Shown here: positions 24,808 to 55,962 of the stretch, one piece after another
Layout of the letters: every line of letters starts with the position of its first letter
Numbering within the stretch: the first letter of the stretch is position 1
Assembly (NCBI GenBank): GCA_944350385.1
Contig: CALVOV010000002.1
Span: 1 to 64,000, forward strand
Direction of reading: 5' to 3'
DNA from: an uncultured Bacilli bacterium
GTDB lineage: Bacteria > Bacillota_I > Bacilli_A > RF39 > UBA660
Length of the DNA: 64,000 bases
The notes under the pieces: generated by a model
Databases searched by the model: none
What the model saw: the letters and a program-made list of their open reading frames with translations, nothing else
What the model was told of the DNA's origin: nothing
Program-made: the position numbers and the translations under genes

Positions 24808-25371
24808 TCAACGTTTATTATATCTTTTAATTATCTTTTTGAAATAATTCTTCGCTTGCATAATACGATCACTTATATTATTTCTTAAACTAGGAATAAT
24901 AGTTGGCAATATAAACACTATAAACCATATAGTAAAAGACAAATTACCACTAAAAATTGCTTTAATTGCTATAATTGATATTGCTATAATAACCAAAAAA
25001 ATTAATCCAATTACAATAATATTAATTATATTAGAAAAATTATTTAATTTATCAAAAGATAAATTTTTATTAGATAGAAAAGCATCTGCCTTTTCTTTAA
25101 AAACATCAAAACGATTTACTATATCAGAAATGTCATTAGACTTAACTGCAGTATCATAATCTTTACCTCGTAAAGATATCTTTCCATCTTCTTTAATTGA
25201 AACATCAACATTTGCAAATTTAACATAGTCTTCAGAAGTAATAGAGGCAGAAAAAGTCTCAATTAACATTTTAATTATTTTATTACGGCATTTATTAGAA
25301 ATAAACTGAGATTCATTAATATAATCTTTTAATTTATTATTTATTTCCTTTAACTGATCCATTCTATTCAA
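24808..25371 (-). CDS. small membrane protein of unknown function
   Basis: The ~187-residue protein has a soluble N-terminal half rich in Lys/Asp and two adjacent membrane segments (about residues 110-135 and 140-160). A short basic tail follows. I recognise no family. It follows yebC within a few bases. The likely start is a TTG at 25371, seven bases after AGGAG; TTG 25374 and ATG 25362 are alternatives in the same frame. A cotranscription-based link with YebC is only positional. Confidence 0.65.
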   Translation of the reverse strand: MNRMDQLKEINNKLKDYINESQFISNKCRNKIIKMLIETFSASITSEDYVKFANVDVSIKEDGKISLRGKDYDTAVKSNDISDIVNRFDVFKEKADAFLSNKNLSFDKLNNFSNIINIIVIGLIFLVIIAISIIAIKAIFSGNLSFTIWFIVFILPTIIPSLRNNISDRIMQAKNYFKKIIKRYNKR

Positions 25372-25375
25372 CAAT

Positions 25376-26098
25376 TTACTCCTCTTTTAGATTATAATAA
25401 ACATCTTGTACATCATCTAAATCTTCCAAAGTATCAACTAAGTTATGTACTTTTTCTGCATCTTCTTCATCTAATGTTACTTCCATATTAGGTACATAAG
25501 TTAATTCACACTCTAAAAATTCTTTTACATCAGCTTTTTCTAAAGCATCTCTGACTTTTGTAAAAGAAGCTTGATCAGTAGTAATTACATATGTATCTTC
25601 AATATGATCAAAATCAAGAGCACCGGCATCTAAAGCAGTCATCATCATTGTATCTTCATCATAATCAGCTGGAATAACAATAGAACCACGACGTTCAAAC
25701 ATATAACTAACGCTTCCATCCGTACCTAAATTTCCACCAGCTTTAGTAAAAGCACTTCTTACCTGAGAAGCAGTTCTATTACGGTTATCTGTCAAGCAAT
25801 CAACCATAAAAGCAACTCCGCCATGGCCATAGCCTTCATAACGAATGCTTTCATAATTGGCACTATCACCTAAACCAGTAGCTTTATCAATAGCTTTTTG
25901 AATATTGTCTTTTGGCATATTTTGAGCTTTAGCTTTATCAACTACCAATCTTAAAGCAGCGTTTTGAGCAGGATCAGGACTTCCACCCTTTGCAGCAACC
26001 ATAATTTCTTTTGCTAATTTTTGAAAAATTTTACCACGTTGTTGGTCTAACAAACCTTTTTTTCTATGTATTGTAGCCCATTTTGAATGTCCACTCAT
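25376..26098 (-). CDS. YebC/TACO1-family translation regulator
   Basis: The 240-residue protein opens with the family signature MSGHSKWATIHRKKGLLDQQ and continues with KIFQKLAKEI and GGSPDPAQNAALR. These are diagnostic of YebC/PmpR/TACO1 proteins, long annotated as transcription regulators and more recently linked to relieving ribosome stalling at proline-rich stretches. The start is ATG 26098 after GGGAGG; an in-frame upstream codon precedes the ribosome site and is rejected. The length is normal. Confidence 0.95.
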   Translation of the reverse strand: MSGHSKWATIHRKKGLLDQQRGKIFQKLAKEIMVAAKGGSPDPAQNAALRLVVDKAKAQNMPKDNIQKAIDKATGLGDSANYESIRYEGYGHGGVAFMVDCLTDNRNRTASQVRSAFTKAGGNLGTDGSVSYMFERRGSIVIPADYDEDTMMMTALDAGALDFDHIEDTYVITTDQASFTKVRDALEKADVKEFLECELTYVPNMEVTLDEEDAEKVHNLVDTLEDLDDVQDVYYNLKEE

Positions 26099-26134
26099 AC
26101 TAATACCTCCCCACATTCCAGTATATGATAACAC

Positions 26135-26158
26135 AAAAAAACTTCATCAGCAAGTTTT
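26135..26158 (-). terminator. terminator between the 26.2 kb gene and yebC
   Basis: The minus-strand stem AAAACTT/AAGTTTT with a seven-base loop is followed by Ts. It sits at the stop codon of the upstream gene and suggests yebC is transcribed separately. Confidence 0.6.
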
Positions 26159-27080
26159 ACTTATTATTTCTAATATAATAAGTGATTTCCTCAACTGACT
26201 CGTTTTGATTAAGCTCAAGACTTATATTTGACAAAAAATATTGATAATGCATAGAAGAAGCTTTTATATAAAAAGTATTTACAACATCATAGATATTATC
26301 ACAATTATTTGCAATCCTTAAGGCAAACATAGTTCCTAAAGTATAAATATAATCATTACAAGGTTTCTTATTTTTAATAATATAACTTAGTTTATCAACA
26401 ATTTCTTGTTTTCCTAATAACCTAACAATTTCTTCATTAGTCTTTCCCTCTAACAGATAGCCTAAATAAATTAAGGTCATATAAGAATCATTCATATTAT
26501 AAATAGAATCATATAATTTTTTATTTATATAATTGCGAGAGTCATTCATCAATGATTTATTAGTCGCAAGATGTTTAGCTAAAGCAAATTCTGTAAGAGA
26601 TATAATTACTTCTAAATAAACCTTTCTCAATCCTTTATCAATTTCAGTGGCATCTAATATATTTCCACTAAATAAACGTGCATATTCTCTTACTAAAAGA
26701 TAACTTTCCTCTATCTTGGAAGAATCAACAACTTCTATTTTATAATTTCCATCTTTAAGGGTAATTCTACTTAAAACTTTTCCCATCTGTTCTTTTGGTA
26801 AAAAAACAATATTATTGTTTTGCATGTCAAAATCTATTTGTCTAATAATATTAGGCGAAATCTTATAGAAAAAATTTTTAACTATATTAACTGTTGTTCT
26901 TTTATCTCTTAAAGTAACATTATAATCACTTTCTTTAGAATTTTTTAAATCATCATACTCTTCATCTTTTAAGCCTTTGTTTAAACCACTAGCATATACT
27001 ATGAATTCTTTAAAGTTATGATAAAAATAAGGATCAGAATCTTCTAAGTAATTTAAATAGTCGATTGCACTTCTATCCAT
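26157..27080 (-). CDS. protein of unknown function downstream of the Hpt-REC gene
   Basis: The 307-residue soluble protein is largely helical in its second half and has no signal peptide. I recognise no family or catalytic motif. It follows the Hpt-REC gene by about 15 bases in the same direction, so it is probably cotranscribed and may take part in the same signalling route. Length, codon use and linkage support a real gene. The ATG is preceded by an AAGGGTG site. Confidence 0.68.
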   Translation of the reverse strand: MDRSAIDYLNYLEDSDPYFYHNFKEFIVYASGLNKGLKDEEYDDLKNSKESDYNVTLRDKRTTVNIVKNFFYKISPNIIRQIDFDMQNNNIVFLPKEQMGKVLSRITLKDGNYKIEVVDSSKIEESYLLVREYARLFSGNILDATEIDKGLRKVYLEVIISLTEFALAKHLATNKSLMNDSRNYINKKLYDSIYNMNDSYMTLIYLGYLLEGKTNEEIVRLLGKQEIVDKLSYIIKNKKPCNDYIYTLGTMFALRIANNCDNIYDVVNTFYIKASSMHYQYFLSNISLELNQNESVEEITYYIRNNK

Positions 27081-27095
27081 TATTTACACACCCTT

Positions 27096-27941
27096 CTACG
27101 AAAGCATATCTTTATATAAAATAGTCTTTTCAAGTATTCTTTTTACATCAGCTTCAGTAAATGGTTTACCAAGCATATCAACAATAGTATAAGTAAAAGC
27201 TCTATCAATTGTTTCTCTAGAAGAATCTCCAGAAATAATAGATAAAGGTATCTTACTAAATACACCATTTTGACGCATATACTCAAGTACAGCAAAGCCA
27301 TCCACTCTAGGCATGTTTAAATCAAGCAAAATTGCTACAATATTATCGTTACCCATATTTGAATTAATAATATTAATAGCTTCTTGCCCATCTTTTGCAA
27401 CACCAACATTATAACGATCAGAGAAAATTCTCTTAACAAAGTTACGAATAATATTAGAATCATCCACAACTAAAATAGTTGGAGTAGTATAAACCTCACC
27501 AGGTTGTATAGCCATACTCTTATGTTCTTCGTTCGTTGATTGCCCTCCAACAGATGAAGAACTTACTGTACCTGTAGCAGACACATCATTCAAATATTCA
27601 TTAGCAATGCCAACAGCACCTTTTACAAAATTTGCAAGATTTGGAAAATTTTGTTGAATGTACAATACATCACCGGCTCTACTCTTTAGCTCATGCTCTG
27701 CTGCTAAATTAGCCAAATCATTAAAACCAAAATATTTTGCATCACTCATCAAAGAATGGATATAAATAGTGTAATTACCCATATCTTTATTATTCTTATA
27801 GTTCTCTAATTTATGTAATTTTTCAGGAGCACTAATAATAAAACCACCCAAATTATTATTATAAGTGTCTATATCCCCGAATAATTCCAAACTAGTTTTA
27901 ACATCTACACCTTTAGATATTAAAAAATTAATGTCTTTCAT
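27096..27941 (-). CDS. Hpt-REC fusion protein (phosphorelay/response regulator)
   Basis: The 281-residue protein has an N-terminal four-helix region resembling an Hpt domain, with His62 in YTIYIHSLMSDAKYFG (compare HxLKG). A Ser/Gly-rich linker (~121-150) and a C-terminal receiver follow. In the receiver the acidic pair is VVDDSN, the phospho-acceptor is Asp207 in ILLDLNMPRVDGF, and the Lys is in LGKPFTEAD. There is no DNA-binding output. The start is ATG 27941, six bases after AGGTG, downstream of an extended -10 promoter. It could relay phosphate from a kinase encoded elsewhere. Whether His62 is phosphorylated is untested because the usual Lys-Gly after it is Met-Ser. Confidence 0.82.
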   Translation of the reverse strand: MKDINFLISKGVDVKTSLELFGDIDTYNNNLGGFIISAPEKLHKLENYKNNKDMGNYTIYIHSLMSDAKYFGFNDLANLAAEHELKSRAGDVLYIQQNFPNLANFVKGAVGIANEYLNDVSATGTVSSSSVGGQSTNEEHKSMAIQPGEVYTTPTILVVDDSNIIRNFVKRIFSDRYNVGVAKDGQEAINIINSNMGNDNIVAILLDLNMPRVDGFAVLEYMRQNGVFSKIPLSIISGDSSRETIDRAFTYTIVDMLGKPFTEADVKRILEKTILYKDMLS

Positions 27942-27967
27942 TATGTTCACCTCAGCCTTATAAAAAA

Positions 27968-27976
27968 ATTATATCA
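27968..27976 (-). promoter_or_regulatory. extended -10 promoter of the Hpt-REC gene
   Basis: The minus strand reads TGA-TATAAT about 27 bases before the start codon. No convincing -35 is seen. Confidence 0.5.
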
Positions 27977-27998
27977 CAAATAATAAAAAAAAACTATT

Positions 27999-28700
27999 TT
28001 AATTTATTCTTTTATTATAAATTATAGGATATGGATCGCCATAGGACTCTAAATTTGTCTTCTCAAGTACTCCCATACCATTTTCTGCTATTTCCCTCTT
28101 AGCCAAATCAATCATTTGTTCTTCCCATAAAGTATCATCATAAAAATCTTCAAATTCTTGATGTCCTCCTTCACACAAAGCAACTAAAAAGTCTTTTTTA
28201 TTACGACATGCTGTTTTTATTAGAATTTCAGTTGCCTGGCATGGCATAAATCCGACTAAAATATCCGTTCTAAAAATATCTGTATTTTCAGTAAACTTTT
28301 CTTTTTTTAAAATAAATTTCTTATCACTAGAATCGTTCTTATATAATCTCGGATCATACACAGTAATAGTTCCATTTTTTTGTTTTAAATGAATATGTTT
28401 AGCTAAAGACGGAATAATTCCTCCACCAATTTCCACTATATTAGAGTCTAAATTAAAATTATCCTCAAGAATCTTCATAAAACCTAGATAAAGATTTTTA
28501 TCATCTGCTAATAATCCAACTTCATCATAAATTTGTCTCAATATATCGGGAACAAAAATAGCATGGTGATGAAGCTTATAATTATTCATTATATATATCA
28601 TTTCTCTCTCTGTATAATTACTTAAATGACTCTTTAAAAATTCGATAACACGATAATCATCATCTATGTTTTGAATATCATTGTAACTTACTTTTTGCAT
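27999..28700 (-). CDS. protein with a SAM-methyltransferase-like Rossmann motif, unknown function
   Basis: The ~233-residue soluble protein has a central motif NIVEIGGGIIPSLAKHI followed by a strand ending in TVYDPRL. This resembles motifs I and II of class I methyltransferases (Glu-x-Gly-x-Gly, then an acidic residue after strand 2). No catalytic motif IV of the NPPY type is seen, so it may bind SAM or a nucleotide without being a standard methylase. ATG 28700 after AGGTGATGAG is preferred; ATG 28727 is a weaker alternative. It lies between obg and the Hpt-REC gene and is separated from obg by a terminator. Confidence 0.65.
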   Translation of the reverse strand: MQKVSYNDIQNIDDDYRVIEFLKSHLSNYTEREMIYIMNNYKLHHHAIFVPDILRQIYDEVGLLADDKNLYLGFMKILEDNFNLDSNIVEIGGGIIPSLAKHIHLKQKNGTITVYDPRLYKNDSSDKKFILKKEKFTENTDIFRTDILVGFMPCQATEILIKTACRNKKDFLVALCEGGHQEFEDFYDDTLWEEQMIDLAKREIAENGMGVLEKTNLESYGDPYPIIYNKRIN

Positions 28701-28735
28701 CTCATCACCTAACTTAAATTCTACCATATCTTTCT

Positions 28736-28764
28736 AAAAAAAAACTAGTATAAATTACTAGTTT
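28736..28764 (-). terminator. terminator of the rplU-prp-rpmA-obg region
   Basis: The nine-base perfect stem AAACTAGTA/TACTAGTTT (loop of five) is followed by seven or more Ts on the minus strand, at the obg stop codon. Confidence 0.85.
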
Positions 28765-30040
28765 AATCCTTAAATGAAAAGTAAAAATCTAAAATACGAA
28801 CTTCATCACCTTCAACTGCTCCAAGTTCTCTTAATTTATCATCTATTCCCATACGAGAAAGTTTCTTAGCAAACCTATACTCTGCTTCTTCTGAAGAAAA
28901 TTTAGTCATCTTAAACAATTTTTCTACTTCTTCCCCTGAAATTACCCATGTACCATCATCATCACGTGTAATAGTATATGGTTCTTCTTTTTTAAACTTG
29001 TAGAGAACATGTGATTCTATTTGACTATCATCATAAAGTGGATTAATTGGAATTTCATCTAGCATATCAGCTAATTTATCAACTACAGGTTGAAGGCCTT
29101 GATTAAGTGCAGCACTAACTTCATAAATACAAACGTTAGGAACTTTCTTTTTAAATTCTTCCAAATGCTCCTTAGCTCCTGCAATGTCCATCTTGTTAGC
29201 TACAACAATTTGAGGCTTTTCTAATAATTTTGGATTAAAGTCACTCAATTCTTTATTTATTAAAACATAATCATCATATGGATTTCTAAGTTCACTACCA
29301 CTCATATCAATTACATGAGCAATAACCCTAGTACGTTCGATATGCTTTAAAAACTTATCACCTAATCCTTCTCCTAAACTTGCTCCTTCAATTAAACCTG
29401 GCAAATCAGCCATGACAAAACTTCTGCCGTTGCTTGCTTTAACAACACCTAAATTAGGATTTAAAGTTGTAAAATGATATGCAGCAATTTTAGGCTTAGA
29501 CTTAGAAACACATGAAATAATAGTACTTTTACCAACACTAGGTAAACCAACTAAACCAACATCAGCTAATAATTTTACTTCTACTTTTAGATTTTTGTGT
29601 TCACCTTCTTCACCATTTTCTGAAAAATTTGGAGCAGTATTAGTTTGTGTTTTAAAAGCCGTATTTCCACGACCACCACGACCGCCTTTAGCAATTAATT
29701 CTTCTTGATCCTTATGTGATAAATCAGCTATAATTAATCCTGTATCTAAATCTGTTACAACTGTTCCTTGAGGCACTTTGATAACTAATGGTTCTGCTCC
29801 TTTACCATGTTGATTCTTACCTCTTCCATTCTCACCATTAGCGCCTTTAATTTTTTTTTGATATCTTAAATCTAATAAAGTGTGAAGTCCTTGATCAACC
29901 TTAAAAATAATATCTGCGCCATGTCCACCATTGCCACCATAAGGTCCTCCTAACTCAACAAACTTTTCTCTTCTAAAAGCTGTACAACCATTTCCACCAT
30001 TTCCAGCTTCTACTTTAATTTTTACTTCATCAACAAACAC
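28763..30040 (-). CDS. obg: ribosome-assembly GTPase Obg
   Basis: The 425-residue protein has the three Obg domains. The glycine-rich N-terminal fold (GGNGGNGCTAFRREKFVELGGP) spans residues 1-158. The G domain has G1 GLPSVGKST, G3 DLPGLIEGA and G4 NKMD. The C-terminal OCT domain found in Firmicute Obg runs to DFYFSF. It acts in 50S assembly and stress control. It follows rpmA by ~95 bases, with a hairpin between them that may trim expression. Confidence 0.97.
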   Translation of the reverse strand: MFVDEVKIKVEAGNGGNGCTAFRREKFVELGGPYGGNGGHGADIIFKVDQGLHTLLDLRYQKKIKGANGENGRGKNQHGKGAEPLVIKVPQGTVVTDLDTGLIIADLSHKDQEELIAKGGRGGRGNTAFKTQTNTAPNFSENGEEGEHKNLKVEVKLLADVGLVGLPSVGKSTIISCVSKSKPKIAAYHFTTLNPNLGVVKASNGRSFVMADLPGLIEGASLGEGLGDKFLKHIERTRVIAHVIDMSGSELRNPYDDYVLINKELSDFNPKLLEKPQIVVANKMDIAGAKEHLEEFKKKVPNVCIYEVSAALNQGLQPVVDKLADMLDEIPINPLYDDSQIESHVLYKFKKEEPYTITRDDDGTWVISGEEVEKLFKMTKFSSEEAEYRFAKKLSRMGIDDKLRELGAVEGDEVRILDFYFSFKD

Positions 30041-30108
30041 AAAAATCCCCTCCTTGCTACTTTAGTATAACAAAACTCTTCAAAAACTTCTATTACAAAT
30101 TTAAAATA

Positions 30109-30130
30109 AAAAGAGCTCTAAGGCTCTTTA
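30109..30130 (-). terminator. terminator after rpmA
   Basis: The minus-strand stem AAGAGC/GCTCTT is followed by TTTTATTTT. It could reduce read-through from ribosomal protein genes into obg. Confidence 0.6.
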
Positions 30131-30134
30131 TTTA

Positions 30135-30425
30135 TTATTCTGCTACTTCATAAACAGATGCTTGTTTTTTATCTCTTCCTAAACGTTCAAATTTAACAAT
30201 TCCATCGATTGTAGAATATAAAGTATCATCATTTCCTCTTCTTACATTTTTACCAGGAAATACTTTAGTTCCACGTTGACGATATAAAATTGAACCAGCT
30301 GTTATAAATTGTCCATCAGCTGCTTTAGCTCCAAGTCTACGTCCTGCAGAATCACGACCATTAGATGTTGATCCTTGCCCTTTGTGGTGAGCAAATAATT
30401 GTATATCTAACTTTAAAAACTTCAT
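30135..30425 (-). CDS. rpmA: 50S ribosomal protein L27 with cleavable N-terminal leader
   Basis: The 96-residue L27 precursor contains the usual [15 protein letters not shown] core that reaches the peptidyl-transferase centre. It begins with [12 protein letters not shown] before HHKG. This is the Firmicute leader, which the protease Prp removes after the LxxxFA-like motif to expose the functional N-terminus. The gene for that protease lies immediately upstream, so substrate and enzyme are cotranscribed. Confidence 0.97.
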
Positions 30426-30436
30426 AATTCTCCTCC

Positions 30437-30739
30437 TTACTTAACTTCAATATTAGCTGGATATTGTTGTTCCAACTCTTTTAAAAGATTAACCATGTTT
30501 CCAATTAGTATTTGAGTAGTTGAATCATCACTAAGTATAGTAATAGTCATACCCTTCTTACTAACAAAATAACTTAGACTACCTTTATCTAATGCTAATA
30601 TACCATTTACAGTTGTAGTAACAATACTACTAGCTGCACTACATACAATATCTTTTCCATATTCAGCATACATGGCATGTCCTAGTATTGATATTTCTTT
30701 AAACTTAGCACTTTCTTTTTTAACTTCTACTTGTATCAT
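30437..30739 (-). CDS. prp: ribosomal-processing cysteine protease Prp
   Basis: The 100-residue YsxB/Prp protease has catalytic His21 in [10 protein letters not shown] and Cys33 in DIVCSAAS, with the usual ten-residue spacing of the family. It cleaves the L27 leader, an essential step in Firmicutes. It lies between rplU (gap of a few bases) and rpmA, as in Bacillus and Staphylococcus. Confidence 0.96.
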
Positions 30740-30741
30740 AA

Positions 30742-31044
30742 TTAACCACTAATTTTAGTAATTTTAATTTTAGTATAAGGTTGTCTATGTCCTTGTGTCA
30801 TACGATTAGATCTGTCTTTACACTTATATTTGAAAACTCTGATTTTCTTGTTCTTACCATTTTTTAGGACTTCACCTTCAACAGTTACATTAGCAAGATA
30901 AGGATTTCCAACTTTAGAATCAAGCATTAAAACTTGATCAAATTTAACAATATCACCTGAAGCAGCATTTAACTTTTCAACATAAATTTCGCTACCTTCA
31001 GTAACATAATATTGTTTTCCACCAACTTTAACTATAGCGTTCAT
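30742..31044 (-). CDS. rplU: 50S ribosomal protein L21
   Basis: The 100-residue L21 begins with the conserved AIVKVGGKQYYV and ends in the QGHRQPYTKIKI motif. It is the first gene of the rplU-prp-rpmA unit, with GGAGG before the ATG and a structured ~95-base leader. Confidence 0.97.
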   Translation of the reverse strand: MNAIVKVGGKQYYVTEGSEIYVEKLNAASGDIVKFDQVLMLDSKVGNPYLANVTVEGEVLKNGKNKKIRVFKYKCKDRSNRMTQGHRQPYTKIKITKISG

Positions 31045-31139
31045 AATTTACCTCCTTCTATAAAACTTAAGACTCGCTTTTAAGGTACAAATAACTGTTT
31101 TAACCTTTTCAATGCGGTTTGAGCATGAGGCTTCAAACA
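31045..31139 (-). ncRNA. L21-type leader RNA upstream of rplU
   Basis: The transcribed leader between the strong promoter and rplU can fold into a hairpin from GTTTGA...TCAAAC (about 31115-31138) followed by GC-rich segments. Position, length and the GTTTGA/TCAAAC pairing resemble the ribosomal protein L21 leader of Firmicutes, thought to allow autoregulation by L21. The assignment is based on position and a partial match only. Confidence 0.5.
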
Positions 31140-31145
31140 CAAAAG

Positions 31146-31174
31146 ATTATAGCACAACTAAGAAATTGTGTCAA
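31146..31174 (-). promoter_or_regulatory. strong consensus promoter of rplU-prp-rpmA
   Basis: A perfect TTGACA (31174-31169), exactly 17 bases of spacer and a perfect TATAAT (31151-31146) lie on the minus strand about 100 bases before rplU. Confidence 0.9.
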
Positions 31175-31198
31175 ACTCTTTTAATATAATAATTTTAA

Positions 31199-31227
31199 TT
31201 GAAAATAGTAAAAGATTAAATTATATG
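31199..31227 (+). promoter_or_regulatory. possible promoter of pyrH
   Basis: TTGAAA, 17 bases and TATATG lie 28 bases before the pyrH start codon on the plus strand. Confidence 0.4.
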
Positions 31228-31255
31228 ATATTATATCTAAGGAGGAGATGAAATA

Positions 31256-31957
31256 ATGAGATATAAGAGAATTCTACTTAAATTAAGTGGCGAAGTTCTA
31301 GCAGGATCTAAAGGTACAGGAATTGACTTTGAACGAGTATTAGAATTAGCTAAAGAAATTAAAGAATGCTTAGATTTAGGAGTTGAAATTGGTATTGTTG
31401 TTGGAGGAGGAAACTTTTGGCGTGGTAAAAGCAATGAATATATGGACAGAGCCACTTCAGACTATATTGGTATGATGGGAACTGTTATGAATGCCTTAGC
31501 CCTAGGTGATGCTTTCAAGCAATTAAATACTCCTGTTAGAGTTCAAACAGGGGTTGAAATGAGACAAATAGCTGAATTTTATATTAAAGATCGTGCTATT
31601 CGTCACTTAGAAAAAGGACGTATTGTTATATTTGGTTGTGGAACAGGAAGCCCATTCTTTTCTACAGATACAGCTTCAGCTCTTAGAGCAGCTGAAATTA
31701 AAGCTGATGTTTTAATTAAAGCTACTAAAGTTGATGGTGTATACGATAAAGACCCAAACAAATATAAAACAGCAAAAATGTATAACACAATTAAATATAT
31801 AGATGTTTTAAATCAAAAATTAAATGTTATGGATTCAACAGCAACAAGCTTATGTATGGATGAAAACATTCCAATACATGTTTTTAACGTTAATAAAAAA
31901 GGGATTTTAAAAAGGATTATTTTAGGAGAAGAAATTGGTACAACAATAACCAATTAA
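31256..31957 (+). CDS. pyrH: UMP kinase
   Basis: The 233-residue bacterial UMP kinase of the amino-acid-kinase fold makes UDP from UMP. Motifs are [10 protein letters not shown], the GGGNFWRG phosphate loop, and the nucleotide-binding [13 protein letters not shown] near residue 165. GGAGGAG precedes the ATG. Unlike many Firmicutes, frr does not follow; a terminator lies right after the stop codon. Confidence 0.97.
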
Positions 31958-31982
31958 AAATAGTCCTTAGGGACTATTTTTT
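31956..31982 (+). terminator. terminator of pyrH
   Basis: The stem AAAAATAGTCC/GGACTATTTTT with loop TTAG runs into six Ts immediately after pyrH. Confidence 0.85.
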
Positions 31983-31998
31983 ATATCTCAAATTCATC

Positions 31999-32028
31999 AA
32001 AAAAGGGACTATTTTAATAGTCTCTTTT
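31999..32028 (-). terminator. terminator of ftsZ
   Basis: The minus-strand stem AAAAGAGACTATT with AATAGTCCCTTTT (one G-T pair) ends in a T-run right after the ftsZ stop codon. Confidence 0.75.
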
Positions 32029-32029
32029 C

Positions 32030-33193
32030 TTATATTCTATCCCTCAAAAAAGGAGGTAATTCATATCTATTATCTTTTTCTTCTTTTACTTTAGAATCTA
32101 ATACTTCTGTATTTTGCATATAATCATTATCTCGTGAAACAGAAACACTTCTTCTTTGAGTTATATTAGGATTTGCAAAAACAGGTTGTTCTTCCGAAAC
32201 AGCATTTAATTTTTCACGTTCACGTTGCTCCTGTAATTTCTTAGCCTTATCAAAGCCTGTAGCGATTACTGTTACTATAACTTCATCACTTAAATTTTCA
32301 TTAATAACAGAACCAAAGATTGTATTAATATCAGTACCAGCAGCTGCTCTAACTACTTCAGCAGCTTGTTCAGCTTCGAATAATGTTAAATTAACACCAC
32401 CAGTAATATTAATAATAGCATCTGTTGCTCCTGTAATAGGAATTTCAAGAAGTGGAGATGAAACAGCTTGTTTAGCTGCTTCTATTGCTCTTTCTTCACC
32501 CATACCAATACCAATTCCAATAATAGCATGTCCACTCTTCTCCATTACAGCTTTAACATCCGCAAAGTCAAGGTTAACTAAACCAACAACAGCAATCAAA
32601 TCAGAAATAGATTGAACACTTCGACGAAGAACATTATCTACTTCCTTAAACGCTTCAATCATTGGTGTAGTCTTATCAATGATTTCTCTTAATCTATCAT
32701 TTGGAATAACAATTAAAGTATCAACATGTTTCTTTAATTCATCAATTCCACCCAATGCATTATCCATTCTTCTTTTTCCTTCAAAAGAAAATGGTTTAGT
32801 AACTATAGCAACTGTCAAAGCACCTAAACCTTGAGCAATTTCTGCAATAATTGGTGCAGCACCTGTTCCTGTTCCTCCACCCATTCCTGCAGTAATAAAT
32901 ATCATATCAGCTCCAACAAGAGCATCTTCTATTTCCTTTTTTGATTCAAGTGCAGCCTCTTTACCAATTTCTGGTCTAGCACCTGCACCTAACCCATCGG
33001 TAAGATTAGAACCAATTTGGATCTTTACATCAGCCTTAGAAGAATTAAGCACTTGTAAATCTGTATTAGCAGCAATAAATTCTACACCTTTAACACCAGA
33101 TTCAACCATTCGGTTAATGGCATTGCCACCGCCGCCGCCAACACCTATGACTTTAATCTTTGCTAATTGATCCATCTCTAATCCGCCTATCAT
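32030..33193 (-). CDS. ftsZ: cell division GTPase FtsZ
   Basis: The 387-residue tubulin homologue forms the division ring. The N-terminal loop is [12 protein letters not shown], the tubulin signature [13 protein letters not shown], and the T7 loop [10 protein letters not shown] linker of about 50 residues leads to the conserved C-terminal peptide [10 protein letters not shown] that binds FtsA and other partners. The start at 33193 follows GGAGG by seven bases; an ATG six codons later is weaker. It lies just after ftsA on the same strand. Confidence 0.98.
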
Positions 33194-33205
33194 ACGTCGT
33201 CCTCC

Positions 33206-34438
33206 TTAATCAAACAAATGACCATATACCTTACTAAAGGTATCATAGTCACTTAATTTATTTTCAGTAGATGTCAAAATTTCCTGATTGTCTTTATCTA
33301 TCATATCATAATTTCTTTCTCTAAGTGAAAGTTTTTCATCAAAATATTTTATAACACCAAAAGCACTACTATACTTATTGTGTCTAATACCAATAGTAGA
33401 AATTTTACATACTTTAGCAAGTCCATGAAATTCACGATCTATCAAAAGATGAAAACCCTGTAACTCGCTCAATCCACCTGCTACAATTATATAACGTATT
33501 TCTCTATTTGTTAAGTTTTTTATTTCATTTTTAGAAAGTTTTAGTATTTCTAAAAGTCTAGCTTCAACAACTTTAGAAATACTTACTTGACTTAACTCCT
33601 TTTTATCTTTGTCATTAGTTATGACAAAAATCTTTTCAGATTCATCAGAATATTCTTCTAAAGCAAAAGCGAAATTTTCTTTAATACTTCTAGCGTCATC
33701 AAGAGAAATATTATAAATATAAGATAAATCCTTATCAACATTAGTACTACCTACTGGTAATAATGAATGTTTAATTTGAATACCTTTATTAAAGATAGAA
33801 ACATTAGTAGAACTTTCTCCAATATTTATAACTGCACCAACATAACTATCTACACCAGAACCCTTAGTAGCATAGTAATCACCAGTTGATGTAAAGGCAA
33901 TATCAACTGTATCTAGCCCAGCTAAATGGATAACTTCTAATATCTTGTATAAACCATCTTTAGGAATACTGCTAATTACAACCTTAGCCTCTAAAGTATC
34001 ACCAACCATTCCTTTAGGATCTTTAATATTTTCTTTATCGTCAACAATAAAACTAATTGGTGAAACCGTAACTATTTCATAACCATCATATTTATGACCT
34101 TTAACAGCTTCATTTAAGACTGCACTAACATCAATTCCAGTAATACAAGTAGGATTCAATACATTAATTGTTCCCATTACAATGTCCATTTTACAATTTG
34201 TAGGTGGCACAGCAGCAACCACTTTTTTTATCTTTATATCTAACATGTTTTCCACTTGTTTAATTGCATTTTTAACACTTGAAACTGCCAACTTAGTATC
34301 AACAATTTGTCCATTTTTAATACCATGAGATGTAGAACAAGTAGATCCTAAAACATGAAAATTTTCATTTCTTTTTTCAGCGACAATTATTTTTACACTA
34401 TCAGTGCCTATATCAATTCCAGTATAAAATTCACTCAT
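33206..34438 (-). CDS. ftsA: cell division actin-like protein FtsA
   Basis: The 410-residue actin-fold protein tethers FtsZ to the membrane. The phosphate 1 motif is GIDIGTDSVKIIV, phosphate 2 VINIGESSTNVSI, and the adenosine motif IIVAGGLSELQGF. The SHS2/1C insertion lies near residues 75-165. The C-terminal ~40 residues are polar and lack an obvious strong amphipathic membrane helix of the usual kind. The start is ATG 34438 after GGGAG. A terminator and a -10 box separate it from ftsQ. Confidence 0.94.
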   Translation of the reverse strand: MSEFYTGIDIGTDSVKIIVAEKRNENFHVLGSTCSTSHGIKNGQIVDTKLAVSSVKNAIKQVENMLDIKIKKVVAAVPPTNCKMDIVMGTINVLNPTCITGIDVSAVLNEAVKGHKYDGYEIVTVSPISFIVDDKENIKDPKGMVGDTLEAKVVISSIPKDGLYKILEVIHLAGLDTVDIAFTSTGDYYATKGSGVDSYVGAVINIGESSTNVSIFNKGIQIKHSLLPVGSTNVDKDLSYIYNISLDDARSIKENFAFALEEYSDESEKIFVITNDKDKKELSQVSISKVVEARLLEILKLSKNEIKNLTNREIRYIIVAGGLSELQGFHLLIDREFHGLAKVCKISTIGIRHNKYSSAFGVIKYFDEKLSLRERNYDMIDKDNQEILTSTENKLSDYDTFSKVYGHLFD

Positions 34439-34463
34439 CACTAGCATCTCCCATCCTATTAGC

Positions 34464-34469
34464 ATTATA
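34464..34469 (-). promoter_or_regulatory. -10 box of a probable ftsA-ftsZ promoter
   Basis: A perfect TATAAT lies on the minus strand about 26 bases before ftsA, just after the ftsQ terminator. The -35 is weak. Confidence 0.45.
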
Positions 34470-34480
34470 CAATAAGAAAT

Positions 34481-34509
34481 AAAAAAAGAAAAGAATTAAT
34501 ATTCTTTTC
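34481..34509 (-). terminator. terminator between ftsQ and ftsA
   Basis: The nine-base stem GAAAAGAAT/ATTCTTTTC with loop ATTA is followed by seven Ts on the minus strand, after the ftsQ stop codon. Confidence 0.75.
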
Positions 34510-34519
34510 AATATAATCT

Positions 34520-35209
34520 TTATTCTTTTATTTGAAAATGATTTCCATTATCTAAATATAAAATTCCTTTTCTATTTTCAAGTTGTTCTAAAACAGCATT
34601 ATAATAATTAATCATTTTAAACTTAGTTAAAGTTAAATAAACCATGTTACCATCATCCATATATAATAAAAATCTTTCCTTATCAATATCATTTGGATCA
34701 TAGAAAATATCCGAAACTTTACCTAAAATATCATCATCGATATTTTTCATATTATTTACAAAATCTTTATAAATATTATTAGGAACATAATTTAATAATC
34801 GAGGAATTCTAAAAATAACAAAATCATTATTTTCAGAAATACTACTTCTATCAGAAAAAACTATTTTCTTATCACTATCTCTATAAAATAAAGGTTTCTT
34901 TTCTGTAACATCAATTTCTAAAATGTGATAAAACTTTCTTTTTATAATTACACTTTCAATATAAGGAGATTTCTCTATATTATTTATTATTTTCTTTTTA
35001 GAATATTTATAAAAACCAGGATAATCTTTTAGATTCGCCAATTCTAAAATATAATCATCACTTAAATAAGTTGTATTTTTTATAATAATATTTTTTATTG
35101 GTAATTGAATATATAAATAAATGCCAAAAGAAATACTTCCAATAATAACAAGCATTAATAATAAGTTAAATAATTTGAATTTTCTCTTTTTCACTAGTTT
35201 CTTTGGCAT
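34520..35209 (-). CDS. ftsQ: cell division protein FtsQ/DivIB
   Basis: The 229-residue bitopic protein has a short basic cytoplasmic tail, one membrane segment (about 14-33) and an extracytoplasmic POTRA domain starting at LPIKNIIIKNTTYLSDDYI. A beta domain follows. In the divisome it joins DivIC and FtsL and controls septal wall synthesis. It sits directly after murB, as in the conserved dcw cluster. The protein is at the short end for DivIB and lacks a long gamma tail. Confidence 0.9.
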   Translation of the reverse strand: MPKKLVKKRKFKLFNLLLMLVIIGSISFGIYLYIQLPIKNIIIKNTTYLSDDYILELANLKDYPGFYKYSKKKIINNIEKSPYIESVIIKRKFYHILEIDVTEKKPLFYRDSDKKIVFSDRSSISENNDFVIFRIPRLLNYVPNNIYKDFVNNMKNIDDDILGKVSDIFYDPNDIDKERFLLYMDDGNMVYLTLTKFKMINYYNAVLEQLENRKGILYLDNGNHFQIKE

Positions 35210-39569: not shown

Positions 39570-39597
39570 AAATTACACTTATGTGTAATTTTTATTT
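39568..39597. terminator. bidirectional terminator
   Basis: The 11-bp stem AAAAATTACAC/GTGTAATTTTT with loop TTAT ends in T-runs on both strands. It lies between the small membrane protein gene and the convergent surface protein gene. Confidence 0.85.
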
Positions 39598-41799
39598 TTT
39601 AATATAATTAAAATCAATCTTACTACTGATATTACCATCATAACTTATATAATTATAACCATCATTCAAATTACCTTCAATTATAGCATTTAACTGATTA
39701 ATTAAATTATTATCAAATATCTTTTCTTCATAATAATTATTTATTGGATGATAAATAGTTATTGGATTAGATTTAAGCCATTCATTCATTTCATCTAAAG
39801 TCATTTTAGCGTTATCTCTTATATATATAACATGACCAGTACCATATGCTCCTGGTGAATCTTGGTTACCTATAATACCATCATTATCAACAGGAGCAAT
39901 ACCATTTTCTACTCTATCAAACCACGTAGAATCTCTACTGGTTGCTATTAATTTATCACTAAAACCATCAAAAACTACACTAGGAGAGTCTATACGAACA
40001 CTATTATGATACATATAACCAAATTCGAATCTATCATCTGGCATACGCATAGATTTTATAACTTTAATATTGCTACCATCAACAATAGTTTTAGTCATTT
40101 CTCGGTGAACATACCACTCACCATTTATTCTATGAATATAGTCTCGATAATTTTTAGAACCATATAACTCAAGATTTCCCAAAGAAATAGTATAACTAGC
40201 ACCTTTATATTCTTCATAACTAGTAAATTTATTACTTTCTTCCAATTGAATATTATCTCTCAAAACATCAGTACCACTAACTTGAACAGAATATAACATA
40301 CGAACATATTTTGTATTTTCTGGTGTTAAAAAAGTAAATTCATATATATTATGTCCCGCCAAATCATTCGAACTTATTAACTTTTTATCACTATCATAAA
40401 AAGATGCTTTAGCTTGAAAAAAGTTACTATCACTATCCCAATGAAATGTATAATTTGTATTTTCTTTGACCTGTATAAAATCACTAGCATTCCAAGCTGC
40501 ATTAGGATATTCATCACCACTATTTGTAAAATATACGCCCTGAGTTACCAAATTTTTATTAAATAAATTTTTCCCAATTATATTTAATGACATATCCCCA
40601 CTAACACTTCTAACTTCTTGTGGATATTCAGGACTAGGTGAAGGAGCTCCCCCAACATAAGGTTCATATAATAATTCTTCATCAATATGATTACCTTTCA
40701 TTATCATTACTCTTATATCAACAGAAAAATTATTTCCAGAAGATACTGAAGTAAATCCCCTTAACCCTAATGTTCCTGTTAAATCACTTTTAGTAACAAA
40801 AAGAAATTTTTTATTTCCAGAAGGCGGTGAAGTTGAAGAAAGATTAAAAGCTGCACCATTAGGAGCAGAAACAAAAGGATCATTTTTCCACATAGATGTT
40901 TGAGTTAAAATTATAGAACCAGTACCACTAAAATTCTTATATTCAACAAAAACAGTATACTCAGTATCAGGTTTTAAATTTACTGCTTCTTTTTTTATCA
41001 TAAAATTACAATAAACTTGATAGTCATTTACATTATTAAAACTAGCTCTAATCCATCCATTAGTTAAAGGAGTAGAATGCGTAGTATCAGCCCAGAAATC
41101 CGTATCTGTTTTAGGTGTAGACAATCCATTCTTTCTTATTAATTGATAACCATTATATTTATTTTGCTCAGAATTACCATAAATTCTTAAATCAAACATT
41201 GAATCTTCTTTTACATTGTCCAACACTGTTACACTACTATTTTCACTAAAGTCGAAAGTATTTTTTCTATCAATTGCTTCTTTTGTTGCACTTACATAGT
41301 ATAATTCTAAAGAAAAAATTTGATCATTAAAAGTTGGAAATTCATTTATATCATATTTATACTCTACTTTTATATTTAATTTTACTCGTGAATTTTTCTT
41401 TAATAAATCATACTTTTCTATCTCACTATCATCATAGTAATTAATATCAAAACTTAAATACTCACTATTCTCATTAGTTATCCCAATTTTAGTAATTTCA
41501 TTTAACATTGCATCAATAGTACCATCATTTACTACATCTATACTAAATTCGAAAATTTCCCCAGGTACATTAAAGGTCCCTCCAAACATAATAGTAGTTT
41601 TATCTTCTTCAATAGTAGGTAAACCTGCACTTATGTCATTCTTTTCAACCTGAATATTATCAAAATAAACATTCCATTTGCTTTCCTTGTAACCTATAGT
41701 TCCATTAATAAACAAATTACTAGACAAAAAGGCAAACCCACTACTTATAACTAAAACTAAAAAAATTATTATCATTTTTTTATCAAATTTGTTTCTCAT
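39592..41799 (-). CDS. secreted surface protein: TasA-like N-terminal module fused to a phage-tail-like C-terminal region
   Basis: The 735-residue protein has an N-terminal hydrophobic signal/anchor segment (about 7-27) ending in FAFLSS. Next is a beta-rich module (30-175) that it shares with the 53.6 kb glycine-rich protein; both carry WNVYFDNI-like and PGEIFEF...VNDGTIDAML motifs, reminiscent of TasA/camelysin-type domains. From ~195 onward it resembles tail-associated proteins of Firmicute prophages: NGYQLIRKNG, then YEPYVGGAPSPSPEYPQEV (378-396), IIGKNLFNK, LSLGNLELYG...YRDYIHRINGEWYVHRE, and ITIYHPINN...LINQLNAI. No phage gene surrounds it. The start is ATG 41799 after GAGG, below a consensus promoter. 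Adhesion or glycan binding is inferred; ligand and anchoring are unknown. Confidence 0.75.
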   Translation of the reverse strand: MRNKFDKKMIIIFLVLVISSGFAFLSSNLFINGTIGYKESKWNVYFDNIQVEKNDISAGLPTIEEDKTTIMFGGTFNVPGEIFEFSIDVVNDGTIDAMLNEITKIGITNENSEYLSFDINYYDDSEIEKYDLLKKNSRVKLNIKVEYKYDINEFPTFNDQIFSLELYYVSATKEAIDRKNTFDFSENSSVTVLDNVKEDSMFDLRIYGNSEQNKYNGYQLIRKNGLSTPKTDTDFWADTTHSTPLTNGWIRASFNNVNDYQVYCNFMIKKEAVNLKPDTEYTVFVEYKNFSGTGSIILTQTSMWKNDPFVSAPNGAAFNLSSTSPPSGNKKFLFVTKSDLTGTLGLRGFTSVSSGNNFSVDIRVMIMKGNHIDEELLYEPYVGGAPSPSPEYPQEVRSVSGDMSLNIIGKNLFNKNLVTQGVYFTNSGDEYPNAAWNASDFIQVKENTNYTFHWDSDSNFFQAKASFYDSDKKLISSNDLAGHNIYEFTFLTPENTKYVRMLYSVQVSGTDVLRDNIQLEESNKFTSYEEYKGASYTISLGNLELYGSKNYRDYIHRINGEWYVHREMTKTIVDGSNIKVIKSMRMPDDRFEFGYMYHNSVRIDSPSVVFDGFSDKLIATSRDSTWFDRVENGIAPVDNDGIIGNQDSPGAYGTGHVIYIRDNAKMTLDEMNEWLKSNPITIYHPINNYYEEKIFDNNLINQLNAIIEGNLNDGYNYISYDGNISSKIDFNYIKK

Positions 41800-41821
41800 A
41801 TTTGCCTCTATTCTAGTAAAA

Positions 41822-41850
41822 ATTATACCTTGAACTATAAATAGTGTCAA
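41822..41850 (-). promoter_or_regulatory. consensus promoter of the phage-tail-like surface protein gene
   Basis: A perfect TTGACA (41850-41845), exactly 17 bases and a perfect TATAAT (41827-41822) lie just before the gene on the minus strand, which predicts strong vegetative expression. Confidence 0.85.
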
Positions 41851-41874
41851 TCAAACTATATAATTAAATAATTA

Positions 41875-41910
41875 AGAAAAAAAATCTACACGAAATTGTG
41901 TAGATTTTTT
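41875..41910 (-). terminator. terminator of pyk
   Basis: The 13-bp stem AAAAAATCTACAC/GTGTAGATTTTTT with a six-base loop ends in Ts on the minus strand after the pyk stop codon. Confidence 0.9.
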
Positions 41911-41911
41911 A

Positions 41912-53630: not shown

Positions 53631-54962
53631 TTAACCTAAATATGTAATTCTAGCATAACCATTTCCAATTTTAGCATAATTAGCAATTGCTATGTCTGAT
53701 ACATTAGTAGTAGAGATTGTTTTAGTTGTTTCTACAGTTGACTCTTCACATTCAAAGCAATACATCACTTTATTGGTTAATAATTCATTTCCAATATATC
53801 CAGATCCTCCTCCTGCTGCTCCAGCATAAGTTGAGGCACCGCCGCCATATAAGCCACCACCTCCACCTGGACCACTATCTTTTGATGATTTTCCATTTCC
53901 ACCTAGTCCAAACGAACCATTAATATTACCAATTGGTTGATAATCAGTAGTAAATTTACTAGATCCAATTCCTCCTACATTTTGAGTTCCACCAGTTGCA
54001 AAAGCATCTTTTCCAGATCCACCAGGAGCCTTACCACTTACACCAATATAGCCACCTCCAGAGCCACCAATTCCAAAATCACCAATATTTTCGGCACTAC
54101 CACCGCCTCCTGCAACAATCAATAGTTCTTCCAAATTATTTTCATAATTAACTAGTAATCCTCTATTATTAATATATGCTATATGAGTTGCTCCTCCACC
54201 TTTAGTAGCATTAGAATCTCCACCACCATTATATCCAGGTGAACCAACTACAACAAATAATTCTTTACCGCTATTTAAAAAAATATTTCCTGAAGCATAT
54301 CCACCATATCCTCCAGTTCCTGAATAAACATTCTTTCCTTGTGAACCCCAAACTTCTAATAGATATGTACCATCAAATGGAACAATAAATTCTTGAACAT
54401 TACTAGTTGAATTAAACTCCCAATATGATTTTCCAAATTTAGCACTATCATCTGCTAAAACATAATTAAGTGCAAGAGATAAAGAAACATTTTCCATCAT
54501 AGGAACTTCAGAAATATCATACTCATAATCCACTTTTATATTTAATTTTGTTTTGCTACTCGCAGGTAAAAAATCATATTGTGTAACTTTCTCTCCATTA
54601 AAATAAGTCACACTATAATTCAAATACTTATCTTGTTCTGGAGTTAAAGCTGTTACATTGAAATTATCTAACATTACATCGATTGTACCATCATTAACAA
54701 TATCAACAGTAAATTCAAAAACCTCACCTGGTTGAGAAAATAAACAATCAAAATCCAATGAAGTATTATCAATTATTTGTGGTTTACTAGCATCAATATC
54801 ATTTTCGACTATATGTATATTGTCAAAATGAATATCCCAAGTGTTTTTAGAATACTCAACATCTACATTTATTTGAAATTCACTAGAAAGATAAGCATAG
54901 CCTACACTAATAAGCAATAAGATTACAACTACTAATATTTTCTTAATAATACTTTTTTTCAT
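53631..54962 (-). CDS. secreted surface protein: TasA-like N-terminal module plus glycine-rich domain
   Basis: The 443-residue protein has an N-terminal hydrophobic segment (about 7-24) ending in YAYLSS. A beta module (~30-172) clearly paralogous to that of the 39.6 kb protein follows: WDIHFDNI, PGEVFEF, VNDGTIDVML, LNIKVDYEYDI. From ~190 a glycine-rich domain appears with GGYGGYASGNIFL, VVVGSPGYNGGG, GGGATHIAY and LIVAGGGGS. This type is found in bacterial surface and tail proteins and in the ALK receptor glycine-rich region. Two cysteines lie near the C-terminus (CFEC). There is no sortase motif. It has a consensus-like promoter and AGGTGATTATA before the ATG. Its function is probably structural or adhesive; this is inferred. 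Confidence 0.75.
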   Translation of the reverse strand: MKKSIIKKILVVVILLLISVGYAYLSSEFQINVDVEYSKNTWDIHFDNIHIVENDIDASKPQIIDNTSLDFDCLFSQPGEVFEFTVDIVNDGTIDVMLDNFNVTALTPEQDKYLNYSVTYFNGEKVTQYDFLPASSKTKLNIKVDYEYDISEVPMMENVSLSLALNYVLADDSAKFGKSYWEFNSTSNVQEFIVPFDGTYLLEVWGSQGKNVYSGTGGYGGYASGNIFLNSGKELFVVVGSPGYNGGGDSNATKGGGATHIAYINNRGLLVNYENNLEELLIVAGGGGSAENIGDFGIGGSGGGYIGVSGKAPGGSGKDAFATGGTQNVGGIGSSKFTTDYQPIGNINGSFGLGGNGKSSKDSGPGGGGGLYGGGASTYAGAAGGGSGYIGNELLTNKVMYCFECEESTVETTKTISTTNVSDIAIANYAKIGNGYARITYLG

Positions 54963-54983
54963 TATAATCACCTATCTTATTTA

Positions 54984-55039: not shown

Positions 55040-55906
55040 TTATAAAAAATAAAAAACCACTAAAATAGTTGCATTACTATTACTTTGTTCTAACAAAGAT
55101 AAAGGATCATATGGAGCACCTGTTTTAGTGCCAGATAATAAAGCAATGTCTACTGCATTCTCTGGAATACCCCAAGAGTTCCCGGAAAACAGAAAAATTG
55201 CTTGATCTACTACATAACCACGAGTATTATACACAACATTATTCATAATAGTTCCCGTAGAATTTGGATTTAAATATGCTGGCTGTCGTAAACTATGAAA
55301 AATATTATTTCTAACTAATAAATTTGTAGTATTTCCCTGAGTTACAAAACCTCTATTAACTATCCACGAAGAAGAATCTCCAGACTGATTTGGACCATAA
55401 ATTTGACAATTTAAAATTCTATTATTATCTCCAGCAATTTGTATAAATTCAACAGGGTAAGGATTGTCACTAGTCATAGTTAAAGAATCAATAGTAATAT
55501 TATCACTATTGCACAAAAATGGCACAATAGGTTCCTGCAACAAAACTAAGCTTCCTGCCCTTCCTTTAATTGTCAATCCTGGTATATTTAACACCATTTG
55601 TTGGGTAATAGGATAAGTACCACTCAATATATTTATAACACTATTTGGCTGTGCTACCGCTAACGCCATTTCTATTTTTTGAAATGGTCTAAGCTGACTA
55701 CCATCTCCTCCAGCTTCTGCTGTAGACTCAACATATAAATTATAAGGATTTGTTTCTATGTTACCTGTTGGTCCTATTGGCCCCGTTGGTCCTGTTGGCC
55801 CTGTTGGTCCAGTACTTTGAGAACCGATTGAATCAATTGAACCAGAAATTTGATATATATGTGTCTTTGGTAAACAACACCTTTTATAATTTTTATTACT
55901 ATACAT
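55040..55906 (-). CDS. collagen-like / parallel beta-helix protein
   Basis: The 288-residue protein begins with a short Cys-containing head (KRCCLPK). A collagen-like run of five Gly-Pro-Thr/Ile triplets (residues ~33-48) follows. A right-handed beta-helix comes next (about 65-270) with DUF1565-like opening GDGSQLRPFQKIEMALAVAQP and coil repeats such as NITIDSLTMTSDN and NLLVRNNIFHSL. Collagen-like stems joined to beta folds occur in exosporium and other surface filaments of Firmicutes. No signal peptide is evident, so export would be unusual; spore-coat-type assembly from inside the mother cell is a possible but unproven explanation. The start is ATG 55906, ten bases after AGGAG. Confidence 0.78.
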   Translation of the reverse strand: MYSNKNYKRCCLPKTHIYQISGSIDSIGSQSTGPTGPTGPTGPIGPTGNIETNPYNLYVESTAEAGGDGSQLRPFQKIEMALAVAQPNSVINILSGTYPITQQMVLNIPGLTIKGRAGSLVLLQEPIVPFLCNSDNITIDSLTMTSDNPYPVEFIQIAGDNNRILNCQIYGPNQSGDSSSWIVNRGFVTQGNTTNLLVRNNIFHSLRQPAYLNPNSTGTIMNNVVYNTRGYVVDQAIFLFSGNSWGIPENAVDIALLSGTKTGAPYDPLSLLEQSNSNATILVVFYFL

Positions 55907-55962
55907 AAATATAAAACTCCTCTTCATATCATATGCTATAAATAAATATCAGCTATTCTATA

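Follow-up and report, generated by a model that had tools for sequence, protein, structure and literature searches.

The receptor-binding proteins of phages have evolved to recognise glycans of bacteria and possibly also of mucosa. Phage-encoded proteins also serve bacteria as adhesins: PblB gives pneumococci galactose-sensitive adhesion (PMC4508584) and Streptococcus mitis binds platelets via products of the SM1 prophage (PMC2920869). Of the SipW-dependent surface proteins, TasA, once cleaved by SipW, polymerises through a donor strand at its N-terminus (PMC9674648); in Bacillus cereus a chaperone-like partner takes part in the assembly of TasA/CalY filaments (PMC13082335). Here we describe a gene of an uncultured gut-type bacterium that joins parts of both kinds. 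It lies among housekeeping genes, and it suggests that bacteria recruit viral tips in order to grip surfaces. An earlier, sequence-only reading of this DNA knew of no description of the arrangement; in the open-licence full-text literature, where absence is weak evidence, a search for reports of SipW-type or pilin leaders joined to phage receptor-binding proteins found none.

The window, that is, the whole stretch of 64,000 nucleotides that was analysed, is part of contig CALVOV010000002.1 (assembly GCA_944350385.1) of an uncultured Bacilli bacterium. An intact reading frame of 735 codons plus stop is located at 39592-41799 (-) and encodes an export module followed by a region resembling a phage receptor-binding protein. 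The fusion of these two parts is well supported. The gene is preceded by a sigma-70-type promoter (41850-41822 (-)), TTGACA-17 nt-TATAAT, which matches the consensus at 12 of 12 positions, in agreement with the earlier claim of a consensus promoter, and is the top one of the 23 promoter-like sites found in the region. A ribosome-binding-site-like AGAGGC (41804-41809 (-)), read directly from the sequence, stands a few bases 5′ of the ATG. On the 3′ side of the gene there is a terminator-like hairpin (39571-39604; −6.8 kcal/mol, z −5.1) common to the gene and a convergent 110-aa ORF, and a strong bidirectional terminator hairpin (41879-41910; −13.7 kcal/mol, z −10) is found between the fusion gene and the pyruvate kinase gene pyk. 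The gene is probably transcribed as a single unit from its consensus promoter. Foreign base composition was sought by comparing GC3 with that of neighbouring genes and was not found, the value of 12.4% being host-like (10.9-15.8% in the neighbours).

The phage-like region starts with a beta-rich domain (residues ~196-374; 40678-41214 (-)), for which the structure model is partly of low confidence. It is followed by the linker YEPYVGGAPSPSPEYPQEV (residues 378-396; 40612-40668 (-)), a signature common to phage tail proteins, with motif residues G, P, P, P and Q invariant across 28 aligned host and viral sequences. The second, jelly-roll-like domain (residues ~407-535; 40195-40581 (-)), with GKNLFNK at residues ~409-415, is the part closest to annotated phage tail fibres. 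The C-terminal cap (residues ~540-735; 39595-40182 (-)) contains YRDYIHRINGEWYVHRE at residues ~551-567, NPITIYHPIN and, near the C-terminal end of the protein, LINQLNAI.

No significant match for the whole 735-aa protein was obtained in Pfam, PHROGs, NCBIfam or a sequence search of solved structures, and profile searches with the C-terminal block gave one weak match alone (E 0.008). Comparison with phage sequences revealed extensive similarity. By tblastn against named phages, annotated tail proteins of Klebsiella, Streptococcus, Eggerthella, Ruminococcus and C. difficile phages were matched down to 3e-10. With an alignment of residues 196-735 and three closest relatives, a two-motif scan revealed 138 viral relatives (best 4e-38), of which 80 loci were kept. 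Matches of viral contigs in blastp cover residues ~200-735 (best 2e-38) and are in many cases co-linear near end to end, with query positions 9-522 aligned to a 561-aa, 8-528 to a 563-aa and 6-511 to an 844-aa phage protein. Profile comparison of the C-terminal part with one phage protein by hhalign gave 99.9% (E 3.6e-33), while the two halves of the fusion protein compared with each other as a control gave 0.6%. The viral homologues adjoin tape measure, tail, amidase and integrase genes; those in named phages adjoin genes for tail fibre, amidase, endolysin and holin. A structure model of the region, built from 28 sequences, is of moderate confidence (mean pLDDT 73.5, pTM 0.73) and matches predicted tail proteins in a viral fold library over its length (1.2e-22, TM 0.50-0.54). 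The best folds among solved structures include CBM22, GH101-associated and other carbohydrate-binding-type beta domains; because the model is moderate, guesses at a ligand based on these folds are weak.

The sequence, profile and fold matches and the phage context therefore provide good support for regarding residues ~187-735 as a whole Firmicute phage receptor-binding protein minus the phage N-terminus, and make glycan binding a natural guess. Tail-like wording from about residue 195 had been noticed in the sequence-only reading, and the motifs it quoted are present; its extent needs correction, since the region begins at residue ~187-200 and is a near-complete tail protein rather than a few motifs. 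Tail receptor-binding proteins encoded near lysis genes, such as gp039 of C. difficile phage phiCDIF1296T and gp16 of R. gnavus phage phiRg519T2, are co-linear with nearly the whole C-terminal 540 residues and have the motif EPYVGGxPSPxPxYPQE and the C-terminal cap in common with the fusion protein. In the phage proteins, however, the N-terminus is a short tail-attachment segment, which in the fusion is replaced by a 187-aa module of signal helix and beta-sandwich. Also, the phage genes lie in a tail/lysis module, whereas the window gene has no phage neighbours. The PblB-type adhesins of S. mitis SM1 and S. pneumoniae provide another parallel, in that a phage-encoded protein serves the bacterium as an adhesin; adhesion is predicted in our case, and the Pbl genes lie within a prophage, while no prophage surrounds the window gene, in which the phage-type part follows a bacterial export module.

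The export module (residues 1-187) consists of a hydrophobic helix (residues 7-27) and a beta-sandwich (residues 44-180; 41260-41670 (-)). The hydrophobic signal segment (residues 7-23; 41731-41781 (-)) ends with G-F-A, a putative SipW-type cleavage site. In 51 module sequences G21 of this motif is invariant (51/51) and is followed by [FY]22 and [AS]23; F46, N91 and G93 are also invariant. The AlphaFold2 model of the module, built from these 51 sequences, has a mean pLDDT of 88.8. Residues 24-43 (41671-41730 (-)), immediately after the putative cleavage site, are modelled without secondary structure and for the most part with lower confidence, and contain conserved alternating hydrophobics (L25, L29, I31, G33 and a hydrophobic residue at 37). 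They look as a donor strand would, and we consider them a candidate for this role.

The same module is present in a paralogue located at 53631-54971 (-), where it is followed by a glycine-rich ALK/LTK-type domain. The two modules are 39% identical (E 4e-45), in line with the earlier observation that a signal segment and a beta module are common to the fusion gene and another gene of the window. The module recurs at 12 more places in this genome (14 copies by BLAST, 16 by profile). Each of the six genomes available for the genus contains it (up to ~40 copies per genome), and so do 48 of the 98 sampled genomes of the family. Some copies stand alone as proteins of 180-210 aa; others carry glycine-rich (PF12810), leucine-rich-like, LamG-like or other C-terminal domains, the kinds other than PF12810 being named by eye. 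Within the scanned viral, family-prophage and pilin-type proteins the window's module was absent; the four fusions and the window paralogue were the only proteins of the scan to have it. The glycine-rich domain of the paralogue also matches several phage families in PHROGs. A glycine-rich gene of phiCDIF1296T is found upstream, at a distance of two short genes, of the gene homologous to our C-terminal region; both kinds of C-terminus therefore co-occur in one phage tail region. Next to the paralogue, at 55040-55927 (-), a gene encodes a collagen-like GPTGPTGPTGPIGPTG stretch and then a right-handed beta-helix (PF13229), making it a second candidate surface protein.

The product of the fusion gene is probably a phage receptor-binding protein that has been domesticated on a surface scaffold of the SipW type and acts as a glycan-binding adhesin. 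A domesticated tail module had been proposed earlier, and the phage-type C-terminus, the non-prophage loci and the host export module agree with it. On the basis of the observed homology, architecture, recurrence, genomic context, promoter sequence and enrichment near SipW-type genes, a course of events can be suggested in which export, cleavage, surface display, polymerisation, glycan binding, the ligand and the benefit are predicted. The ancestral tail receptor-binding protein of a Firmicute phage would have lost its tail-attachment N-terminus and gained the ~187-residue export module, which the uncultured small-genome Bacilli of the family would use for many different surface proteins. The N-terminal helix would direct the fusion protein into Sec-dependent export, with cleavage after GFA by a signal peptidase of the SipW type. 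The beta-sandwich would then retain the product at the surface, perhaps with its newly exposed N-terminal segment inserted into the next module in the manner of TasA. The ligand of the tandem carbohydrate-binding-like domains may be a glycan of host mucus, of food particles or of other bacteria. Such repeated joining of an entire phage receptor-binding protein to an export module of bacteria, at loci other than prophages, would provide a route to ready-made binding specificities and opens a way to the function of a large, unnamed family of surface proteins in uncultured small-genome Bacilli.

It also raises the question of whether the domesticated tip binds the surroundings of the bacterium or the receptor of its own phages. 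The best of the rival explanations takes the second side: the displayed protein would act as a decoy or shield that occupies the receptor on the cell's own surface and blocks adsorption of related phages (superinfection exclusion). Since prophages of the family carry the same kind of receptor-binding protein, the receptor may be on these cells, and the host copies are diverse, with several in one genome (G001, below). On the other hand, there are no defence genes nearby, nothing places the receptor of the ancestral protein on this host, and the unrelated C-termini of the paralogues suggest general surface functions. We regard such a decoy as unlikely. A broader view, which we put forward tentatively as a possibility, takes the module as a general SipW-type display platform, possibly polymerising by donor-strand exchange, whose tips have been repeatedly captured from the bacteria's own phages and both grip glycans and block related phages. 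If this is true, tail proteins supply the bacteria continually with new adhesins, which are mounted on leaders of at least three kinds (the window module, canonical SipW-type and type IV pilin-like).

The connection with SipW was revealed by the distribution of signal peptidase genes. Six genes of this genome match the SipW-type signal peptidase model TIGR02228, five of them above the curated cut-off. No SipW-type gene adjoins the fusion gene of the window itself, which counts against the proposed reading. Over the six genomes of the genus, 11 of the 31 TIGR02228 genes have a module gene at a distance of no more than 2 kb, compared to 2.2 expected under a uniform-placement model with rounded genome sizes (Poisson tail 2e-5), and each genome has at least one such pair. 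At locus L047 a short SipW-like gene, below the cut-off, is directly followed by a module-only gene, and at L045 the neighbour of a module-only gene encodes a membrane protein of 383 aa whose SipW-type domain scores above the TIGR02228 cut-off. Comparison by hhalign of the module profile with canonical SipW-type leaders (three leader sequences, classed by eye) gave 95.1% (E 3.4e-8) and an unrelated control gave 0.6%. The model of BsaA-type SipW-dependent proteins, TIGR04090, matched 4 of the 51 module members weakly (best 1.2e-4), leaving the window protein itself unmatched.

Other SipW-type arrangements were seen at these loci. The 383-aa multi-membrane protein of L045 has its SipW-type signal peptidase domain at the C-terminus and lies ~2.5 kb from a SpaA-type pilin backbone with a thioester domain and a sortase (L045:1072-7653); similar peptidases of 374-397 aa recur in most genomes of the genus. 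At L048:9555-11642 a 695-aa protein, encoded beside an ATPase-like gene, combines an N-terminal SipW-type peptidase domain with a long hydrophilic C-terminus, and its homologues of 673-685 aa are present in two other genomes.

TasA, CalY and BsaA resemble the module in having an N-terminal signal followed by a beta-sandwich, and the genus-wide association of the module with SipW-type peptidases adds to the likeness, as does the conserved segment after the putative cleavage site, which recalls the TasA donor strand (PMC9674648). Yet profile searches with the module matched nothing, no significant Pfam family (including Peptidase_M73 of camelysins) was found, and a search of its fold against the PDB gave no match with E < 0.02, TasA being absent among the 50 best. 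Together with weak TIGR04090 matches and the large variable C-terminal domains, this sets the module apart from the TasA group, membership in which is not supported. Of the earlier description of the N-terminus as TasA-like, the occurrence at many non-prophage loci, the SipW-type link and the similarity to SipW-type leaders stand and the assignment to TasA is conjectural; we therefore speak of a SipW-type export module.

These data bear on another explanation, according to which the protein is a structural fibre subunit whose N-terminal module polymerises by donor-strand exchange as in TasA, with the tail-like region mainly a spacer or decoration. The conserved alternating hydrophobic segment and the module-only paralogues of 180-210 aa that adjoin SipW-type genes would fit such a role. 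But a TasA fold match is lacking, and module-only copies are better suited to be subunits than a 735-aa fusion, making this explanation quite unlikely.

The adhesin reading is consistent with the genomic surroundings of the gene. It sits between pyk and the conserved 110-aa ORF, which is beside the guanylate kinase gene gmk. Beyond pyk there are genes for formamidopyrimidine glycosylase (mutM), DNA polymerase I (polA) and LexA (lexA), and murG and murB are located on the other side. No other phage gene is nearby, as had been stated before, and the fusion gene is not in a tail or lysis module. A relative, G001 (a metagenome-assembled genome; contigs JAUNMV010000013, -22 and -06), contains three further genes built in this way, which adjoin seryl-tRNA synthetase (serS), pyruvate:ferredoxin oxidoreductase-like (nifJ-like) and ThiI-like genes, these neighbours being named from reading the sequences. 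A search for the complete fusion among the scanned phage and family-prophage proteins found none. Neither a C-terminal region with matches to host proteins alone nor a fusion inside an intact prophage was observed. A chimeric assembly is unlikely, as there are four fusion genes at different loci in two genomes.

At the junction of pyk and the 110-aa ORF, G001 and G003 have a short intergenic stretch with one hairpin, i.e., an empty site, and in G005 a different gene occupies this place. In the window (39570-41911) and at L246:2900-4030 the junction holds different single genes depending on the genome and is empty in others; it is a small insertion hot spot without an integrase.

That the gene might be a plain remnant of a decayed prophage, with no cellular role, is suggested by the phage type of its C-terminal part and by the existence of related prophages in the family. 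Against this, the reading frame is uninterrupted and includes a host module absent from the scanned phage proteins, the promoter is perfect, GC3 is host-like, no other phage gene lies nearby, and four copies are found at unrelated housekeeping loci of two genomes. The explanation is very improbable, and we reject it on the genomic context and the empty sites in relatives.

The rarity of the full fusion also counts against the proposed reading. Among 386 genomes of the family, some match to the tail block is present in 16, and 2 alone have the full fusion. Several of the other matches are prophage genes beside those for a Prophage_tail protein, Amidase_2 or a GH25 lysozyme, and one (L224, E 2e-4), within an apparent replication protein, was discarded as chance. 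A search of 395 genomes of the class outside the family gave two weak matches besides the family's own. At three loci (L221, L230 and L220) the tail block stands behind leaders that read as canonical SipW-type, as judged from their sequences, and at L220 it is also accompanied by Listeria-Bacteroides repeats. At L216 and L241 the block stands behind a type IV prepilin leader (TIGR02532, PF07963). In these pilin-like proteins of the same family, a surface-type leader of bacteria thus carries a tail block of the kind seen in the window protein, but the leader is a different one and the tail block is less similar.

In a quick tree of the tail block, constructed with no outgroup and containing long branches, host-fused rows appear at separate places among phage rows. 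Well-supported branches require two separate origins of the pilin type, and the window type is placed apart from the SipW-type rows, which suggests at least three captures of tail blocks by host leaders. The opposite direction of transfer, from bacterial surface proteins of this type to phages, hardly seems credible with 138 viral relatives against four full fusions, host-fused rows inside the viral diversity and a regular place for the protein in the tail module of phages, even though exchange of domains between surface proteins and phage tails runs both ways and the tree is without an outgroup.

The type IV pilin-like proteins with a C-terminal tail receptor-binding block are encoded at L216:979-2442 and L241:591-2240, in two other genomes of the family, the latter gene adjoining a mutS-like gene. 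On contig C72 of G001, a tandem run of at least seven module-bearing genes of differing lengths (25159-34524) looks like a factory of variable surface proteins.
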